Origin: a virus
Length of the DNA: 28,625 nt
Direction: 5' to 3' (one strand)
IMG/VR virus record: IMGVR_UViG_3300009504_000028
Span: 1-28,625 of that record
Part shown: piece after piece, positions 653 through 28,625 of the stretch
How the letters are laid out: each line of letters opens with the position of its first letter
Numbering within the stretch: position 1 is the first letter of the stretch
Program-made: the position numbers and the translations under genes
The notes under the pieces: model-generated
Seen by the model: the letters and a program-made list of their open reading frames with translations, nothing else
What the model was told of the DNA's origin: nothing
Databases searched by the model: none

Positions 653-1687
653 TTATCCACCTGCCCGTTTCCCTTTTTTGGTCTTAGACTTAAGAGCCCC
701 CATCCTGAGCTGTTCCATGGATGCTCCAATCTTGAGAGCTCCATGGTCCTTGATGAGCAGATGCTCATCATCATCAGTGTCCATGTCCCTTAGGCTTTCT
801 ATCCTGATGAGCCTCATACTACTCCCAATAGGCAGGCCATATCTTTCAGCAGACCAGTTGTCAATGATAGTCCTGGAGCATATAATAGAGCCATCCATCT
901 CATGGACTACTCCATAGCCTCCCAGGACTGTGGCATCCTTCTCCTCCCAGTGACCCCCCGATTTCTGGTTGATGCAGAGGACAGCTGGTTTGATGTTATC
1001 CTTCTCCATCATCTCCCAGAGGCCCTTGGTGAAGCACTGGGCAAAATAGTAGGCTTGTGCTGGCCACAGTCTGCAGAGCTTGGACAAGCTGTCTATGACC
1101 ACCAGCTTGGGCTTGACTTTTCTGAGCTCCACCCCAATCTCCTTGAGCACAAATTGATTGGTGAACCTCTCAATGCTCTGAGGCTTGGGGTCTCTGAGTG
1201 TCTGGCCATGCAGGTCTAAGAACCTCATGGTCACCAGGTCCTCCATACTAAGGTCCAGCTCCTGTCTATGGCTATTGGCTATGGTCATAAATCTGGCTTG
1301 GGGGCTCTCATTATATATGTAGAGAACAGGGACCCTGGCCTTAGCCTGGAGCATGGCCTCTTGGAGGCAGAGAGTGGTCTTGCCAGACTTACCAATGCCA
1401 GTCACATTAATAATGCTCATCTCTGGCCAGCCCTTGGCCCCAAGGAGCTCTTGGAGCCCTGGGACCCTTGCAGGCAGACACGTCTCATGGCTGGTGGCTG
1501 TGTTATACCAGCCATGTTGTCTGGCTTGGTTAGTGTGGACTGAGGGGCCCTTGAGCTCTTTATGTCCCTGGAGGACCCTGCCATCACTGGTATGGATGAC
1601 AGGCTCAAGGGGCTTCTGGCCAGTCCCAAGCTGTCTGGTCTTAGGCTTAGAGGAGAAGGTGTCTCCCCATCCTGCTGCTGCTGTCAT
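653..1687 (-). CDS. RecA-fold ATPase of the RadA/RadB/KaiC type
   Basis: The protein has 344 residues. It has a P-loop GIGKSGKT at about residues 97-104 and a Walker B strand LVVIDS at about 195-200. A further strand, near residue 238, carries INQKSGG, as in the L2-proximal region of RecA/RadA/KaiC proteins. The first 80 residues are low-complexity and not recognisable, and there is no helix-hairpin-helix domain as in full RadA. The 20 C-terminal residues are very basic. Homologues act as strand-exchange recombinases, recombination mediators or regulatory ATPases. Here the neighbouring nuclease, OB-like and Spo11-like genes favour recombination. The start has a strong AAGGAGGG site 7 bases upstream and lies 3 bases after the nuclease stop. 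A KaiC-like or RepA-helicase-like role cannot be excluded. Confidence 0.8.
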   Translation of the reverse strand: MTAAAGWGDTFSSKPKTRQLGTGQKPLEPVIHTSDGRVLQGHKELKGPSVHTNQARQHGWYNTATSHETCLPARVPGLQELLGAKGWPEMSIINVTGIGKSGKTTLCLQEAMLQAKARVPVLYIYNESPQARFMTIANSHRQELDLSMEDLVTMRFLDLHGQTLRDPKPQSIERFTNQFVLKEIGVELRKVKPKLVVIDSLSKLCRLWPAQAYYFAQCFTKGLWEMMEKDNIKPAVLCINQKSGGHWEEKDATVLGGYGVVHEMDGSIICSRTIIDNWSAERYGLPIGSSMRLIRIESLRDMDTDDDEHLLIKDHGALKIGASMEQLRMGALKSKTKKGKRAGG

Positions 1688-1690
1688 TTT

Positions 1691-2179
1691 TTATCCCTCC
1701 TTCATCCAGGATATGAAGCTCCTGGGATGAAAAGACTTGAACTGCTGCTGGAGCTGGGAGACACTGATTGAGGCCCTCTTATCTGGCTTAATGTGGATAT
1801 GGTCAGCAGGGGTCCAATAGATGCCCTTCCATAATATGACTGGCTCTGCCTCATCAGGAGTGACCAACTCATAAACGATAAAGACATAGCAACAGCCCTG
1901 ATGTTGGATGAGCATCTCATGGCTCTCAGGCCTAATAATGACTTTGCCATCCCTCAGCCTGTTACATGATTGCATCCCATCCCTGGTCTGCCAAACACTT
2001 AAGTCTCTGACTTTCGACCTCACTGCTTTGACCTCCACATAGCTGACAGCCACATCATGGCTGACCCTCAGGTCAGCTCCCTGGCATCTAATAGCCTCCA
2101 CATTCAGACCCCACATCTGGAGCAAGGAGACCATCTGGTCCTCAACCAATGTCCCAATAGTTTTCTCCAGCTGGCTCAA
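1691..2179 (-). CDS. PD-(D/E)XK nuclease (Holliday-junction-resolvase or restriction-like)
   Basis: The 162-aa protein shows the core of the restriction-endonuclease-like fold. An N-terminal helix carries an acidic residue (E13). GAD follows with D36, then a hydrophobic strand ending in E49-V50-K51 (VEVKA). D36 and E49-x-K51 are the expected metal-binding and catalytic residues. The length fits archaeal Hjc resolvases and viral exonucleases, but I cannot choose between them. The C-terminal half has aromatic strands and a basic tail. Translation probably starts at TTG (2179), which overlaps the TGA of the DUF932-like gene and has a GAGGAGG site about 10 bases upstream. It sits directly before the RecA-fold ATPase, so resection or resolution in recombination is the likely job. 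Confidence 0.75.
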   Translation of the reverse strand: MSQLEKTIGTLVEDQMVSLLQMWGLNVEAIRCQGADLRVSHDVAVSYVEVKAVRSKVRDLSVWQTRDGMQSCNRLRDGKVIIRPESHEMLIQHQGCCYVFIVYELVTPDEAEPVILWKGIYWTPADHIHIKPDKRASISVSQLQQQFKSFHPRSFISWMKEG

Positions 2180-3201
2180 ACCTTAGCAGCCTCCTCTTTC
2201 TCATGCTCATGCCTCAGCTTCTTGAGAAAGGTGAATGGGTCATCATTGTGCTCCATGAGCAATCTGTGAGCATCCTGCTGGAGCTTCAGCTGATAGCTCT
2301 TAGCACACTGGTCATGGTGGCTGGCCACCCATGTCATAGCATTGACCAGACCATAGACAGTCCAGCCCTCATGCTGACCTTGACGCTGACTGATGGTCCT
2401 GGACAGATGGTCTGGATAGTGCAGGTCTTTGGTCAAAAACCTCTCTACATCCATCTGAATAACACAAGTATTTTTAGATGCATTGATGGCAGGGATAAGA
2501 AAGCTGGCTGACTGAATAGTCTGCTCTATCATCCTCCAAAGCTCAGTCTGGAGCTCTGTCTTGTCACCAATGTGTCTGAGCTTCTGGCTATGGATGCCAG
2601 TATTGGCCATCATACCATTGGAACATATTTGTCTCCTGACATAGAGATATACACCTACACTGGCCATCCCTGTCTCACTGTTGGTTAGGGTCAAGCCCAC
2701 TGTATGGGTGTCAATCCCTTCTCCAATCTGCTGGTCCAACATCAAAGTCCTCATGGTCTTTCTGCTGGTCTCAATCTCATGGATGACCTTATACTCCAGA
2801 CCATTGGCCTTGAGGAGCATCTCTACTGTCTCAAAGACCTCAGTATGAGTGACCTCAGTATAAAGAGAGGTCACTACTCCAGCCACTTGTCTGGAGCCCT
2901 CTGGCAACCTCAATATTAGGGGGTTCCGTGACTGGTCTGATAGCCTCTGATTTAGGAGCTCCTGGGCTCTTAGATTTCTAATCCTCCAATCTCTGACCTT
3001 TCTGAGGTCTCTGAGATTTCCATCACAATGAGACCAGAGCTGGCTCTCAGCACTATCCCTAACCTCATAATAGGACCCATCAGGGAGGGTGATTTTTGTC
3101 CACTGTTCCAGGTGATGTGGCCACTGCTTGCCCCTAAATCTAAAAACATGGACCTGGGAGCCCTTGGGGAGCTCCAGGTCTTGATATATCTGCTGCTGCA
3201 T
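2176..3201 (-). CDS. DUF932-like protein
   Basis: The 341-aa protein resembles the DUF932 family of phages and plasmids. A central beta-rich segment ends in a basic stretch followed by QICSNGMM (residues 191-198), which matches the family's conserved Cys-x-Asn-Gly motif. An alpha-helical C-terminal third with a Lys/Glu-rich tail follows. The molecular function of the family is not established; members are common beside phage replication and recombination genes. The frame could begin 5 codons earlier, but the ATG at 3201 has a GGTGA site immediately upstream, so I choose it. The stop overlaps the TTG start of the nuclease gene. The gene begins with three CAG codons, a trait shared with other early genes here. 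Confidence 0.72.
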   Translation of the reverse strand: MQQQIYQDLELPKGSQVHVFRFRGKQWPHHLEQWTKITLPDGSYYEVRDSAESQLWSHCDGNLRDLRKVRDWRIRNLRAQELLNQRLSDQSRNPLILRLPEGSRQVAGVVTSLYTEVTHTEVFETVEMLLKANGLEYKVIHEIETSRKTMRTLMLDQQIGEGIDTHTVGLTLTNSETGMASVGVYLYVRRQICSNGMMANTGIHSQKLRHIGDKTELQTELWRMIEQTIQSASFLIPAINASKNTCVIQMDVERFLTKDLHYPDHLSRTISQRQGQHEGWTVYGLVNAMTWVASHHDQCAKSYQLKLQQDAHRLLMEHNDDPFTFLKKLRHEHEKEEAAKV

Positions 3202-3234
3202 TTTTTCACCATCCAAAGGAGGGGGGGTTAGCCC

Positions 3235-5226: not shown

Positions 5227-5469
5227 TTAGTCCAGGTCATTGGGGTCTATGTCATCCAGATGCTTGACCTCTATGACCAGCTTGGCACTTCTCCTGTTGG
5301 TCTGGGTGGAGCTGACCCGATATCTCATCTTGGACAGGTCTGAGGGGTCCTTGATGTTGCATTGGAGGAGGGCCTCCTGGAGCTTGTAGGCATCCAGATA
5401 GACATGGGCTCCTTGGCTATGCTTGCCATGAGGTCTGAGCTTTCTCCAGAGCTTGGCCTCTCTGCTCAT
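5227..5469 (-). CDS. Small basic hypothetical protein, 80 aa
   Basis: This 80-aa protein has a strongly basic first half (repeated Lys, Arg, His), a central helix, and an acidic C-terminus rich in Asp. No known family is recognised. The basic N-terminus could bind nucleic acid. Its ATG overlaps the TGA of the upstream gene (ATGA), and a GGGAGGGG site lies about 6 bases before the start, so it is translationally coupled. Confidence 0.72.
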   Translation of the reverse strand: MSREAKLWRKLRPHGKHSQGAHVYLDAYKLQEALLQCNIKDPSDLSKMRYRVSSTQTNRRSAKLVIEVKHLDDIDPNDLD

Positions 5470-5852
5470 ACTTTGCCCCTCCCATCAGCCCAGTATCCAT
5501 GATAAAGATAAAAGGCCACTTGACCACTTATCTCTCCCTGCTCTGCCATCTCTCGGACCCTAACCCCTATAGTGGCAACCATGGGCTCTCCTGATGCCTC
5601 TGAGAACCTTGCAGGGCTTTGAGGTGTCCTTATATCCTTGGTAGGAGAAAGAGGCTTAGAGGGCTCAAAAAGGCCCTCAGAGGTTAAGACATCAATGAGG
5701 GACACTCCCACAGTCCTGAGAGCATATTGAGCCCCCTTGAGAGAGGGGTCTATGGTCCCTGTATTGTGAGATAGATTGGCCTCCACTATGAGAAGGTTAG
5801 CCCAAGCCTCAAGGGCCTGGGCAAGGCTTTTCTGACCTGTCTGCTCACTCAT
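5466..5852 (-). CDS. Hypothetical protein, 128 aa
   Basis: I do not recognise this protein. The N-terminal 60 residues look helical (an ALEAWANLL-type amphipathic helix), then comes a Pro/Ser-rich linker, and the C-terminus has a helical and an aromatic segment (FYLYHGYW). The frame is open to 5900, but the ATG at 5852 overlaps the stop of the Topo VI-A-like gene (ATGAGTGA) and has AGGAGG 9 bases upstream, so this start is preferred. Being directly coupled to the Spo11-like gene, it is a candidate partner protein for it. No GHKL ATPase motif is present, so it is not a B subunit. Confidence 0.72.
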   Translation of the reverse strand: MSEQTGQKSLAQALEAWANLLIVEANLSHNTGTIDPSLKGAQYALRTVGVSLIDVLTSEGLFEPSKPLSPTKDIRTPQSPARFSEASGEPMVATIGVRVREMAEQGEISGQVAFYLYHGYWADGRGKV

Positions 5853-7014
5853 CCTGGTCATCCTCCTGGTCAGCTGGGTCCTCTCCCTCACTCCACACAA
5901 TGCTCAGCTCAGAGCCATCCCAGCATAAGTCATCCACATAAGCAGATAAGATGTGCTTGACTACTCTCTCAGGGTGGTCACTCAGGCTATGGCTAAACAC
6001 TCCAGTGGTCTTAGCCCTCCTCTGAACAGTGCCAGATGATAAAAGACCTCTGTCATCAGACCATCTGCCATCCTTCTGGAGCTGCTCCACCTTGTCATAT
6101 ATCTCACTCTTGATGGTTCCCATCAACTGGATGGTTACAGCATCCATGGACCAATATGGGAGGTCCTTCCAGCTGCTCTGCTTCAGCCACTCATAGAGGC
6201 TCCTCTCTGGGCACTCCTCCTCAAGGACCTTTATGAGCAACTCCTTTCTCCTGAGGCTGTCCACAGCCTGAAGCTCCAGACCATAGGCTCCATCAATGCC
6301 ATGCTCCTCAACCCATGCCTCATCATAGGGGCAGTTTACTGGGATGCTGAACTTCAAGCTGTCCAAGTCCTCAAGGGGAACATCAGATGGGCAGATGCCA
6401 GCTCTCCTGGCCCTGATTGAGACCCCCAAAGTGGTCATCCTCCTCTCCAGGTCCTCAAGTATCTTGAAGCCATAGGCATCATAGTCAGTGAGGCCAATGA
6501 GCAAATAACGCTTGTAGGACCACTCAGAGCCATGTCTCAGCTCCAGCATCCCTATGAGCTTCTCAATGAGAGCAGTAGCCTCAAAACCCTGGCCCTCAAT
6601 GGCCCAGCATCTATAAGCCTCAGCCACAGTCTTGACCTTCACAAAGGTGGCATTATCCTCCACAAAGATGATGACATCATCAAAAGGACCAGTAGCATCC
6701 ACATGGTCCCTGCTCTTGTCCTTGATGCCAACATCCCTGTATTTCAGCTCTCCAGATAACACCATGTCAGAGAGCACTGCACTGAGAGCCTGGCTGGCCT
6801 TTCTGCCCCAGTTAGGCTGTCTTGACTTGTCTGGCTCATATCTCATCAGAGGGATTTTTATGGCCTGATACCACATCTCTCTGAGGGTCCTGTCCTCAGT
6901 GTAGGTTTTGGTAGTCTCATTCTGGATGAGGGCTCTGAGAAGCTCAGCCCTGCTCTTAAACTCTATCTGGAGCTTCTCTGTGGACATCTTGAGAAAGTTA
7001 ACGGTCTCTGCCAT
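5845..7014 (-). CDS. Topoisomerase VI subunit A / Spo11-like protein (orphan, Mini-A type)
   Basis: The 389-aa protein has the two hallmark domains of type IIB topoisomerase A subunits. In the N-terminal winged-helix (5Y-CAP) domain, LREMWY at residues 44-49 matches the RDIFY-type motif, making Tyr49 the candidate DNA-cleaving tyrosine. The Toprim domain follows. It has Glu119 after a hydrophobic strand, a CWAIEGQGF stretch around 136-144 equivalent to the TGKGYP region of Topo VI A, and the metal-binding Asp177-x-Asp179 in LTDYDAYG. Full A subunits work with a GHKL ATPase B subunit; none is encoded here. Orphan A-like proteins of mobile elements are known as Mini-A. The ATG has AGGAGGG 7 bases upstream. 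Expected activity is DNA double-strand cleavage, for recombination or replication initiation. Confidence 0.85.
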   Translation of the reverse strand: MAETVNFLKMSTEKLQIEFKSRAELLRALIQNETTKTYTEDRTLREMWYQAIKIPLMRYEPDKSRQPNWGRKASQALSAVLSDMVLSGELKYRDVGIKDKSRDHVDATGPFDDVIIFVEDNATFVKVKTVAEAYRCWAIEGQGFEATALIEKLIGMLELRHGSEWSYKRYLLIGLTDYDAYGFKILEDLERRMTTLGVSIRARRAGICPSDVPLEDLDSLKFSIPVNCPYDEAWVEEHGIDGAYGLELQAVDSLRRKELLIKVLEEECPERSLYEWLKQSSWKDLPYWSMDAVTIQLMGTIKSEIYDKVEQLQKDGRWSDDRGLLSSGTVQRRAKTTGVFSHSLSDHPERVVKHILSAYVDDLCWDGSELSIVWSEGEDPADQEDDQDE

Positions 7015-7015
7015 T

Positions 7016-7213
7016 TCAAGACCCTCCTGGTGAGGCAAGATATATCCCAGGAGCTATTTGATAGTCCTTAAAAACCTCCCAAATATCACCATCTGGGCCT
7101 ATTCTATATTCTATATTCAACCTTTTTTCTTTATATGTCTGCTCACTCTGTATGAGCTGCTCTGGGCTCTTGTTTTGGGAGGCTGCCCCAGCCTCTCTCT
7201 GCTGCTGCTGCAT
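7016..7213 (-). CDS. First small protein of the early operon, 65 aa
   Basis: This 65-aa protein begins with four glutamines (CAG repeats), has a charged helical middle and an aromatic C-terminal segment. It has no recognised family. The ATG is preceded by an AAGGAGTGA ribosome site 6-7 bases away. Its stop lies just before the start of the Topo VI-A-like gene, so it heads that operon, about 80 bases downstream of the predicted transcription start. A regulatory role is possible but unsupported. Confidence 0.65.
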   Translation of the reverse strand: MQQQQREAGAASQNKSPEQLIQSEQTYKEKRLNIEYRIGPDGDIWEVFKDYQIAPGIYLASPGGS

Positions 7214-23645: not shown

Positions 23646-23792
23646 TCCCTTAATCAGCTTGTGGAATTAATAAAGGTTGCTCCATAAGGGGCCCTTCCCT
23701 GCTCTCTGATGAGCCTCAGCCTCAAAGTAGGATAAAGCCACAGATGACAAGAGAGGCCCAAGGAGAGAGCTCCTGAGAGCCCATGGTTGCCA
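23646..23792 (-). promoter_or_regulatory. Intergenic region before the portal gene with TATA-like box
   Basis: The 147-bp gap has no convincing gene. On the minus strand TTTATTAATT (23674-23665) resembles an archaeal TATA box. Its centre is 25-28 bases before the portal GTG/ATG, so the message could be leaderless or nearly so. An AGGGAG lies too close to the start to be a good ribosome site, which supports a leaderless start. Confidence 0.35.
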
Positions 23793-24017
23793 CTATATGA
23801 GCTTCTTGAGCTCATACCTAACCCTATAATACTCAACCCTTGGAGACACCCATCCCTCCTGGACCTGAGGCCTAAGCCTACTCACAGCCTGAGCAGACCT
23901 CAACCCATGCACCTTATAGTTAGCCTCCAGCCACAAAAACAGCTCTTGACTGGTAGCATCAGGACCACAATAATCCAGAGCCTCTTTCAACCTCCTGAGC
24001 TGGAACTTACTGGCCAT
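23793..24017 (-). CDS. Small hypothetical protein between terminase and portal, 74 aa
   Basis: The protein looks helical with many Arg and Leu residues (SKFQLRRLKEALDY) and a basic C-terminus, possibly a small DNA- or protein-binding domain. The ATG shares bases with the TerL stop (TGATG) and has GGAGGG 7 bases upstream. No family recognised; small genes here sometimes encode packaging accessory proteins. Confidence 0.65.
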   Translation of the reverse strand: MASKFQLRRLKEALDYCGPDATSQELFLWLEANYKVHGLRSAQAVSRLRPQVQEGWVSPRVEYYRVRYELKKLI

Positions 24018-25222
24018 CACACTGCCCTCCGCAAGAGACCAGGCCTCTTAGGCCCAGACCCCCTCTTGCCCAAACAATATCTCAGAGCATCCATAGCATG
24101 GTCCATCTCTTTCACAGGCTTATCCCTCTCCTCATCCCAATGATATGAGTTAAGCTCATTGATAGTCATCTGGCACTCCTCAGACACCAATAGCCTCCCA
24201 TTCGCCAGCAAGCTCTTAATGTGCTGGATGCCACCCTGGACCTCATTAGAGGCAGCCATAACATCCAGACCCTCAGCCCTCATCTCCTCAATCTCTCCCT
24301 TAGCAGATGGGTCAGCCAATATAGGCCCAGGCCTCCCAGCCTGCATCTCCTTGATGACAGGGATAGTGCTGGACAACAGAGCCCTCCTCTGATAAAACTC
24401 CCTGGTCAAGACCTGTCTGCCATCAGGCAACTGGGCCACCTGGAGCAAGACCCTGGGATTGGTAAAGCCAGCATCATAACCATATCTCCACACAATGCCA
24501 GGACCACTGACCAGCTCATCAACATCTCTCCTGGACAGAACATCCTGGACACTAAACTCAGGATAGACCAAGCCAGAGAACTTGACAAAGGCCCCATAAA
24601 ACTCCTGCTTCAAGAAATCTCCAGAATAGCTGGACCTAAGGTCCTCATAATATTCAGGGCTGACAAAAGGATTGGTATCACTGGCCACCCCCAGGATGGC
24701 CTGGTATCTCTCAGGATGCCCCTCCTTTCCAAAGTGCTCCCAGACCCAATCAAAGCCCTTAGGGGTGGTGGTCAGGGCCATCCTCTGCCCTGTTCCCTGC
24801 CTCATCCTGGCCCTCAAGACCTTGAAGGCATAGGGGGGAATATAGCTGGCCTCATCCAGCCAAGCCCAATTTACAGTCAGCCCCCTTATCCTGTCCACCT
24901 GAAGCTCTCCCTCCAAGGACCTGAACAGCAACTTAGCACCATTGGCCAAGACCATGATGGCCTCATTCTTATTCCAGTCTTTCACCAGGTCCTTAGGGAT
25001 AACCTCCTGGATGACAGGGATGATGACATCTCTGAGCATGGGATATGTCCTGCTCCCAATCAGCCCAGTCATACCAGGCTGTTCCATGGCCCTGAGCAGA
25101 CACCACAGTGCTCCTGCCCAAGTCTTTCCACATCCCACTCCACCCACAAAAGCCACATACCTGGAATTGAGCTCAAGGAAATCTGCTTGGGGGTCACTGG
25201 TCTGAAAGGCCAGCTCAACCAT
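24017..25222 (-). CDS. terL: Terminase large subunit
   Basis: The 401-aa protein has the two-domain architecture of phage packaging motors. The ATPase domain has Walker A GGVGCGKT at residues 27-34 and Walker B WAWLDEAS with Asp123-Glu124, followed by a coupling TTTPKG motif. The RNase H-like nuclease domain has candidate metal ligands in YGYDAGFTN, ILADPSAKGEI and MDHAMDALRY. It translocates and cuts viral DNA at the portal. It is slightly shorter than many TerL proteins (430-550 aa). The ATG overlaps the end of the small terminase gene by 8 bases and follows a GGAGAG site. Confidence 0.93.
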   Translation of the reverse strand: MVELAFQTSDPQADFLELNSRYVAFVGGVGCGKTWAGALWCLLRAMEQPGMTGLIGSRTYPMLRDVIIPVIQEVIPKDLVKDWNKNEAIMVLANGAKLLFRSLEGELQVDRIRGLTVNWAWLDEASYIPPYAFKVLRARMRQGTGQRMALTTTPKGFDWVWEHFGKEGHPERYQAILGVASDTNPFVSPEYYEDLRSSYSGDFLKQEFYGAFVKFSGLVYPEFSVQDVLSRRDVDELVSGPGIVWRYGYDAGFTNPRVLLQVAQLPDGRQVLTREFYQRRALLSSTIPVIKEMQAGRPGPILADPSAKGEIEEMRAEGLDVMAASNEVQGGIQHIKSLLANGRLLVSEECQMTINELNSYHWDEERDKPVKEMDHAMDALRYCLGKRGSGPKRPGLLRRAV

Positions 25223-27518: not shown

Positions 27519-28625
27519 TCACATAACCTCTGGGTTAGCTCTGACCATGGTCACTGGTCTCCCCTTGGTCTTTATCCTGGACATGATTATGGCCTCATGT
27601 CTCTTGAGACTGTCCAGCACTTCTGCTGTCTCCACATAACTCAGACCAAAGGCCTGAGCTTTCTTTTTCAAGTGGCTCATCTGGATGCCATCTGGATGCT
27701 CCTTTATCATGCTGAGCAGCTGAGCTCCATGGCTGTCTCCCATGATGCTGGCTCTCCATAATAGGGACCTGTCAATGAGGCCCTCCAGGGTGGGGTCCAG
27801 TTTGACATCCAGATTTCTGGCTCCTGGCTTATAGTATTTTACTATGTTGTATCCAAGGGCCAGCCTCCCAATCAGCTCCTCATCATTATGGGTTAGGTCA
27901 GGGTCAATGAAGTCCAGATAGTCATAGAGGTCCTGGGACCAGCTTAGCTCTCTAACCGCAAAGCCCTTCAGGAGCTTGGAGAAGCCTGCTCTTACCTTAC
28001 CAAGCTTTACAAAATCCGGCTTGAGACCTCTGGCTGACCTCTTAGTTGTTTTGAGGGCCTGTCTCTCAATGGATGAGGGTATGAACTCCATCAGGAGCCA
28101 TCTCCTGCCCTGACCACTGGAGAGCTTAAATCTGGAGTGCTGGGTCCCAGCCCACAGTGTGGAGAAAGACTGATAGTTGATGTCTCCTCCAGAGAGGGTC
28201 TTGTGGACCCATCCATCATCAAGGAAGTCCAGGATGGCATTGTCCAGCTTGCCACTGTTCTCGCCCTCTCCCTGGATTGCATCCAGCTCATTGAGGCAGA
28301 TGATGCCATCCCTGTGGGTCCAGGCCAGCCCTCTTATCTCTTGACCATCCTTGAAGGTCCCTATAAGGCCAGCCTCTGTCATAAAGCCCCTATACACTGC
28401 ATTGATGCCACTCTGGTCCAAAAAGCCTGTTTTAGAGCCCTCACTGATGAACCTCTTGGGAGTATAGCTTTTCCCATAGCCACTGGGGCAGACCATTAGG
28501 AGATTGAGCCTGAGGTCTGGGACAAGCCCTCCCTCAGTGTGGTATATTGTGCCACCATCCAGGTATCTCCTGTTAGACAAATTGGCTATGTGACAACCAA
28601 TACTGGCCAGATAATAGGGAGCATA
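27519..28625 (-). CDS. MCM-like AAA+ ATPase (main part; gene continues at base 186)
   Basis: In the closed genome this is complement(join(27519-28502, 1-186)), 389 aa. It resembles the AAA+ core of archaeal MCM helicases. Walker A is CPSGYGKS (residues 67-74). Next comes an INAVYRGF helix like the MCM SAAGL segment, then Walker B GIICLNELD (128-136), where the usual Asp is Asn133 although Glu134 is kept. A beta-hairpin region (SGGDINYQSFSTL), sensor-1 TLWAGTQ and an Arg pair (195-196) in the arginine-finger place follow. The C-terminal 75 residues form a winged helix. The MCM N-terminal OB/zinc domain is absent, so it is about half normal MCM length. It could be a replicative helicase or a helicase-recruiting ATPase. 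Confidence 0.75.
   Translation of the reverse strand, partial: YAPYYLASIGCHIANLSNRRYLDGGTIYHTEGGLVPDLRLNLLMVCPSGYGKSYTPKRFISEGSKTGFLDQSGINAVYRGFMTEAGLIGTFKDGQEIRGLAWTHRDGIICLNELDAIQGEGENSGKLDNAILDFLDDGWVHKTLSGGDINYQSFSTLWAGTQHSRFKLSSGQGRRWLLMEFIPSSIERQALKTTKRSARGLKPDFVKLGKVRAGFSKLLKGFAVRELSWSQDLYDYLDFIDPDLTHNDEELIGRLALGYNIVKYYKPGARNLDVKLDPTLEGLIDRSLLWRASIMGDSHGAQLLSMIKEHPDGIQMSHLKKKAQAFGLSYVETAEVLDSLKRHEAIIMSRIKTKGRPVTMVRANPEVM
28503..28625. repeat. Terminal direct repeat, right copy
   Basis: This is the exact copy of bases 1-123. Joining 28502 to base 1 restores one continuous 389-codon minus-strand gene. Confidence 0.95.

Follow-up and report, generated by a model that had tools for sequence, protein, structure and literature searches.

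A divergent, Mini-A-like orphan homologue of type IIB topoisomerase A subunits encoded by a tailed virus

Orphan A subunits and the viral locus

The meiotic DNA breaker Spo11 derives from the Topo VI family, and orphan relatives of the Topo VI A subunit, termed Mini-A, have already been described in many phages and viruses of archaea. Mini-A proteins have been described as truncated Top6A homologues of archaeoviruses and bacteriophages, with Pseudomonas phage NP1 as an example (review figure, PMC7614492). They are close to Topo VIII and occur mainly on mobile elements, and no archaeal Topo VIII or Mini-A has been characterised (review, PMC8185306). Such lone A subunits are common among viruses (our searches gave at least 466 IMG/VR loci), and their function is not demonstrated in the available literature. 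Here, we have analysed a 389-aa viral protein that shares several traits with Mini-A (NP1; Haloarcula virus HCIV-1 ORF35), being a virus-encoded A homologue without B, with a short N-terminus and a replication-type gene context; what is new is its unusual divergence.

The analysed sequence (hereafter the window) is the complete IMG/VR record IMGVR_UViG_3300009504_000028, of 28,625 nt. An identical 123-bp repeat at both ends (1-123 = 28503-28625) makes the record look circularly closed at 28,502 bp and probably complete. All main genes lie on one strand, and those for terminase, portal, prohead protease and major head protein bear out the initial annotation of a tailed virus. The features relevant here are as follows.

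5845 to 7014, minus strand: 389-aa orphan type IIB topoisomerase A-subunit-like protein (Mini-A-like), ATG start
7023 to 7028, minus strand: strong Shine-Dalgarno (SD) sequence AGGAGG of the 389-aa gene, 8 nt upstream of the ATG
7016 to 7213, minus strand: 65-aa ORF with its own SD, stop 1 nt ahead of the ATG of the 389-aa gene
5466 to 5852, minus strand: 128-aa ORF, its start overlapping the stop of the 389-aa gene by 8 nt
653 to 1687, minus strand: RecA/KaiC-superfamily ATPase (thermo_KaiC_2, E=4e-25, below the NCBIfam cut-off; RadB, 5e-6)
1691 to 2179, minus strand: 162-aa ORF with a PD-(D/E)xK-like motif, GADLRVSHD...VEVKA, as read by eye
2176 to 3216, minus strand: DUF932 protein (PF06067, E=3.7e-10)
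24017 to 25222, minus strand: terminase large subunit (phrog_2, E=2e-51)

The 389-aa ORF lies where it had been annotated, without a strand; it is read on the minus strand, from 7014 to 5845. It does not head an early operon as had been proposed, because the 65-aa ORF (7213-7016), probably the first gene of the block, precedes it. Neither is it beside recombination genes: the ATPase and the PD-(D/E)xK-like ORF are found several genes downstream. A search for relatives of the ATPase found none. The PD-(D/E)xK-like ORF, which had no match in profile libraries or in the PDB, is possibly a nuclease or resolvase. Separately, an AAA+-like ORF on the minus strand (27519-28625 plus 1-204; GYGKS Walker A, weak PF00004 match, MCM-like by eye) spans the record ends, which is consistent with a circular assembly.

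Family membership and catalytic residues

The 389-aa protein escapes detection by Pfam, NCBIfam and PADLOC. Nothing credible was retrieved from the first two; TP6A_N and TOP6A-Spo11_Toprim gave no match to the protein at E<1 or to the genome at E<10, and a PDB sequence search returned noise only. Its sole match among the 38,880 PHROGs families was a weak one, to phrog_6247 "DNA topoisomerase" (E=0.0091), at residues 114-203 in the Toprim region. No close relative was found in IMG/VR viral_contigs, genome_contigs or plasmids, and the phages collection held only non-significant matches (E>=1). When TDYDAYG was searched as a DNA pattern in IMG/VR, the five matches were all due to chance. The gene has no relative at 27 IMG/VR loci with a related terminase (about 30% identity), and phrog_6247 is missing from ten of the related virus records.

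Relatives of Topo VI-A and of Mini-A were sought with two consensus-like baits, and we counted as evidence only the real sequences that these retrieved. One such bait matched phrog_6247 at E=4.8e-71 and retrieved 76 annotated phage records, that of Pseudomonas phage NP1 included; as this family includes the published prototype, we take phrog_6247 to be Mini-A. An HMM built from ten Mini-A proteins scored the 389-aa protein at 20.3 bits (E=1.4e-5, Z=1000). One thousand shuffles of the protein reached at most 5.6 bits, and all other ORFs of the window were far below it. In a decoy set of 2420 ORFs of at least 150 aa, drawn from all retrieved loci and about 2,300 of them unrelated, the protein ranked directly after 93 strong Mini-A ORFs and ahead of the rest, among which was a true Topo VIII (11.0 bits). 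When the single sequence was compared by hhalign, the similarity was weak (probability 8-12%; in one comparison, E 0.002-0.004). The HMM search proposed as a check of the annotation thus gave a score above shuffles and decoys with the Mini-A profile, no match with the Pfam Topo VI-A/Spo11 families and a weak one with phrog_6247. That the likeness is fortuitous and the protein unrelated is hardly credible: curated families do not recognise it and its single-sequence fold fails (see below), but the shuffle and decoy tests speak against chance, as does a model matched well by Topo VI-A/Spo11 only.

The candidate catalytic residues had been named from the sequence as Tyr49, Glu119, Asp177 and Asp179. 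All are present as numbered, and in an alignment with 72 IMG/VR Mini-A proteins they occupy the family's catalytic columns.

6868 to 6870, minus strand: Tyr49 codon, candidate cleaving tyrosine (TLREMWY), column invariant in the 72 Mini-A
6658 to 6660, minus strand: Glu119 codon, Toprim glutamate (IIFVED), column invariant in the 72 Mini-A
6478 to 6486, minus strand: Asp177-Tyr178-Asp179 codons, Toprim DxD (TDYDAYG), Asp177 column invariant in the 72 Mini-A

At position 179, 70 of the 72 Mini-A have Asp and two have Asn. Eight residues are identical in all rows: Arg45, Tyr49, Asp99, Arg102, Glu119, Gly143, Asp177 and Gly182. The Ala292 column is also invariant; it belongs to the C-terminal part, where the alignment is poor, and we give it no weight. 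The order R-x3-Y, D-x2-R, E, G, DxD...G is that of Mini-A, with similar spacing. Tyr135 is the catalytic residue of yeast Spo11, and the tyrosine of the 389-aa protein stands four residues after the arginine, as in the Arg131/Tyr135 pair of that enzyme. All this is kept at 13-23% identity to Mini-A, compared with a median of 46% between Mini-A proteins. Unlike Mini-A, the protein reads DYDAYG instead of GDHDPSG and ED instead of EK, its C-terminus is about 85 residues longer, and it differs at six otherwise invariant Mini-A positions (R85 to V, E115 to I, K120 to D, S146 to A, G176 to T and P180 to A).

The retention of the catalytic set at such low identity is our main argument that the 389-aa protein may be regarded as an enzyme. 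In the same sense, the survival of R-x3-Y, E and DxD through near-total divergence argues that covalent cutting would be the conserved job. If the protein were a remnant that still binds DNA, in a structural or regulatory capacity, but has lost catalysis, this could account for the very long branch in the tree (4.4 changes per column) and for the loss of several family residues; we consider it very improbable, given that the four catalytic residues are all kept at an identity of 23% or less. A plain metal-dependent Toprim nuclease, hydrolysing DNA at the Toprim site with no covalent tyrosine intermediate, would have its precedents in OLD and in JetD/MksG (Wadjet/MksBEFG). The latter are nucleases without topoisomerase activity, with a related Toprim and winged-helix architecture. 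Known Mini-A match JetD models weakly (E about 0.001), and also DUF2399, and the usual strand passage is impossible for an A subunit without an ATPase. Nevertheless, Arg45-x3-Tyr49 is kept here and invariant in the 72 Mini-A, which is hard to explain with an idle tyrosine, and the 389-aa protein itself, unlike JetD/MksG, has no PADLOC JetD match at E<1. SMC/kleisin partner genes were not recognised among the window proteins scanned. We judge this nuclease reading unlikely.

Two Mini-A genes retrieved in the searches have an unusual structure. In that of Clavibacter phage 33 (L038:1896-2885), about 37 residues surrounding the Toprim glutamate motif are duplicated in frame. In Parabacteroides phage PDS1 (L033:4911-5797), Mini-A is split across two frames, annotated as "DNA topoisomerase" and "DNA primase".

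Predicted fold and phylogenetic placement

AlphaFold run without an alignment gave no usable fold (pLDDT 36). With a 73-row Mini-A alignment the model reached a pLDDT of 70 and a pTM of 0.63, with residues 13-205 mostly above 80. When this model was compared with the PDB by Foldseek, the only matches below 1e-3 were Topo VI-A chains (1d3y_B, 8.8e-5; 9o0g_C, 2.9e-4; 1d3y_A, 4.3e-4), followed by Spo11 (8urq, E=1.3e-3) and then by a next match at 0.037. A viral structure library gave general Toprim matches only, none below 1e-3. The global rmsd of about 10 A makes the domain orientation in the model unreliable, and the Mini-A alignment supplies much of its signal, so that the fold match is support and not independent proof. 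Within these limits, the predicted structure supports a 5Y-CAP plus Toprim fold, in which the winged-helix tyrosine and the Toprim acidic residues resemble those of Topo VI A/Spo11. The structure prediction that had been suggested as a check therefore agrees with the annotation, with a model that is partly alignment-driven. In contrast to Topo VI A/Spo11, the 389-aa protein has no N-terminal B-binding region, lacks the TR of the PDxxTR motif, is not matched by the Pfam families TP6A_N and TOP6A-Spo11_Toprim, and is not accompanied by a B gene.

A tree that combined the 389-aa protein with Mini-A, Topo VIII-A and Topo VI-A placed it next to Mini-A as a weakly supported sister (85/54), outside a Mini-A clade supported at 96/97. 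Tree tests found grouping with Topo VIII (p 0.165) or with Topo VI (p 0.32) compatible with the data. Because the weak sister placement goes together with profile scores that favour Mini-A, we file the protein as Mini-A-like and not as a proven Mini-A. The annotation of an orphan Topo VI-A/Spo11-like protein stands in that it is nearest to Mini-A by profile, matches Topo VI-A/Spo11 by fold and has no detectable B subunit. On its sequence, we regard it as a very divergent variant of the orphan A subunits already described. Alternatively, it could belong to an orphan type IIB A-subunit lineage of its own, so far unrecognised and with an origin outside known Mini-A, acting as a lone maker of programmed double-strand breaks that start recombination-dependent replication. 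This is rather unlikely in our estimate; if true, such a lineage would be a functional analogue of Spo11 in a tailed virus.

Membership in Topo VIII was also considered. Like Topo VIII (Paenibacillus polymyxa pPPM1a and plasmid relatives), the 389-aa protein would be a type IIB enzyme on a mobile element; BLASTP is collinear over residues 45-190, and DYDAYGFKI resembles DADAAGTKI of Topo VIII (DxDAxG). Unlike this fusion of A and B with a GHKL ATPase, it has 389 aa only and GHKL was not found. What the likeness of DYDAYG to DADAAG suggests is borne out neither by the profiles (6.4 bits with Topo VIII-A vs 20.3 with Mini-A) nor by the tree, although the latter is compatible with it, and we disfavour this assignment.

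Partner genes and proposed mechanism

The claim that the genome has no Topo VI B-like gene was confirmed: neither the GHKL ATPase (PF02518) nor the Topo VI-B transducer (PF09239) matched anywhere in the record at E<=10, and control genomes matched as expected. The N-terminal region of Topo VI-A contacts the B subunit. The tyrosine is at position 49 in the 389-aa protein, vs 109 in a haloarchaeal Topo VI-A and a median of 42 in Mini-A, which implies that the B-contacting N-terminal part (about 60 residues) is missing, as in Mini-A. Topo VI-A activity normally requires B, and this usual need counts against a stand-alone action.

In another reading, the protein would borrow Topo VI-B from the host, if the host is an archaeon, and replace or poison the host A subunit. 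Archaea generally possess Topo VI, and there are two weak hints of an archaeal host: the terminase is closest to that of a Methanofastidiosa virus (31%) among its matches, and the ATPase resembles archaeal KaiC-like proteins. Borrowing is quite improbable nonetheless, since the B-contacting residues before the winged helix are the ones missing, and related Mini-A are present in phages of Pseudomonas, Salmonella and Flavobacterium, lineages not known to possess Topo VI or its B subunit.

The virus itself could also supply a partner. The SD of the 128-aa ORF sits within the 389-aa gene and, together with the 8-nt stop/start overlap, implies coupled translation, in agreement with the initial annotation. 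The further suggestion that the 128-aa product is a partner fared less well. Among 78 Mini-A loci no family of gene neighbours recurs in more than four, and the only window neighbours with relatives there are terminase, portal and a weak DUF932 match, which argues against an obligatory linked partner and for an A subunit that acts without a viral one. Moreover, none of the libraries searched contains a relative of the 128-aa protein, and overlapping or abutting genes are common in this tightly packed virus genome. A two-gene enzyme made of the 389-aa protein and the 128-aa (or 65-aa) product is therefore a long shot.

Two of the Mini-A loci do have a nearby protein with a GHKL-like IGQFGSGAKHAI motif that is unrecognised by Pfam. 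These 476-aa proteins (L060:4946-6376 and L078:9878-11302; motif IGQFGSGAKHAINTLLRAG) are 55% identical to each other and are possibly a B-like ATPase in a few Mini-A viruses, judging from the motif. The window holds no relative of them.

Taken together, the reading we hold somewhat more probable than all others combined is that of a divergent stand-alone homologue of type IIB A subunits, acting as an ATPase-free homodimer that cuts both DNA strands in viral replication or recombination. The lack of a close homologue, the failure of the single-sequence fold and the lost Mini-A residues count against it. Based on the retained residues and on the established type IIB chemistry of Topo VI and Spo11, the protein would form a homodimer with no ATPase partner. 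Each Tyr49, on its winged-helix (5Y-CAP) domain, would attack one DNA strand next to the metal-binding Toprim site contributed by its partner protomer, and this two-metal, tyrosine-dependent transesterification would leave a double-strand break with the protein linked to the 5' ends. ATP-driven strand passage is unlikely in an enzyme that lacks an ATPase, a point that bears on how Spo11-type cutters could operate without passing strands. As to the physiological role, we would conjecture that the substrate is viral DNA, the cut serving to start recombination-dependent replication, or to relieve and release intermediates. Host DNA, which the initial annotation also named as a target, may be another substrate. 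The RecA/KaiC ATPase, the DUF932 protein and the PD-(D/E)xK-like ORF, all in the same direction, make a role in replication or recombination the best guess.

Two further observations concern mobility and sequence repeats. HCIV-1 is a tailless sphaerolipovirus, and on one virus contig (L045:4512-6966) an HCIV-1-type Mini-A, 58-60% identical to that of HCIV-1, lies right after the terminase gene of a tailed virus, a sign of transfer between unrelated virus classes. In the window, a 34-nt inverted repeat (5568-5601 and 23764-23797, 85% complementary) has one arm within the 128-aa gene; its second arm lies upstream of the portal gene and extends into the end of a 75-aa ORF.
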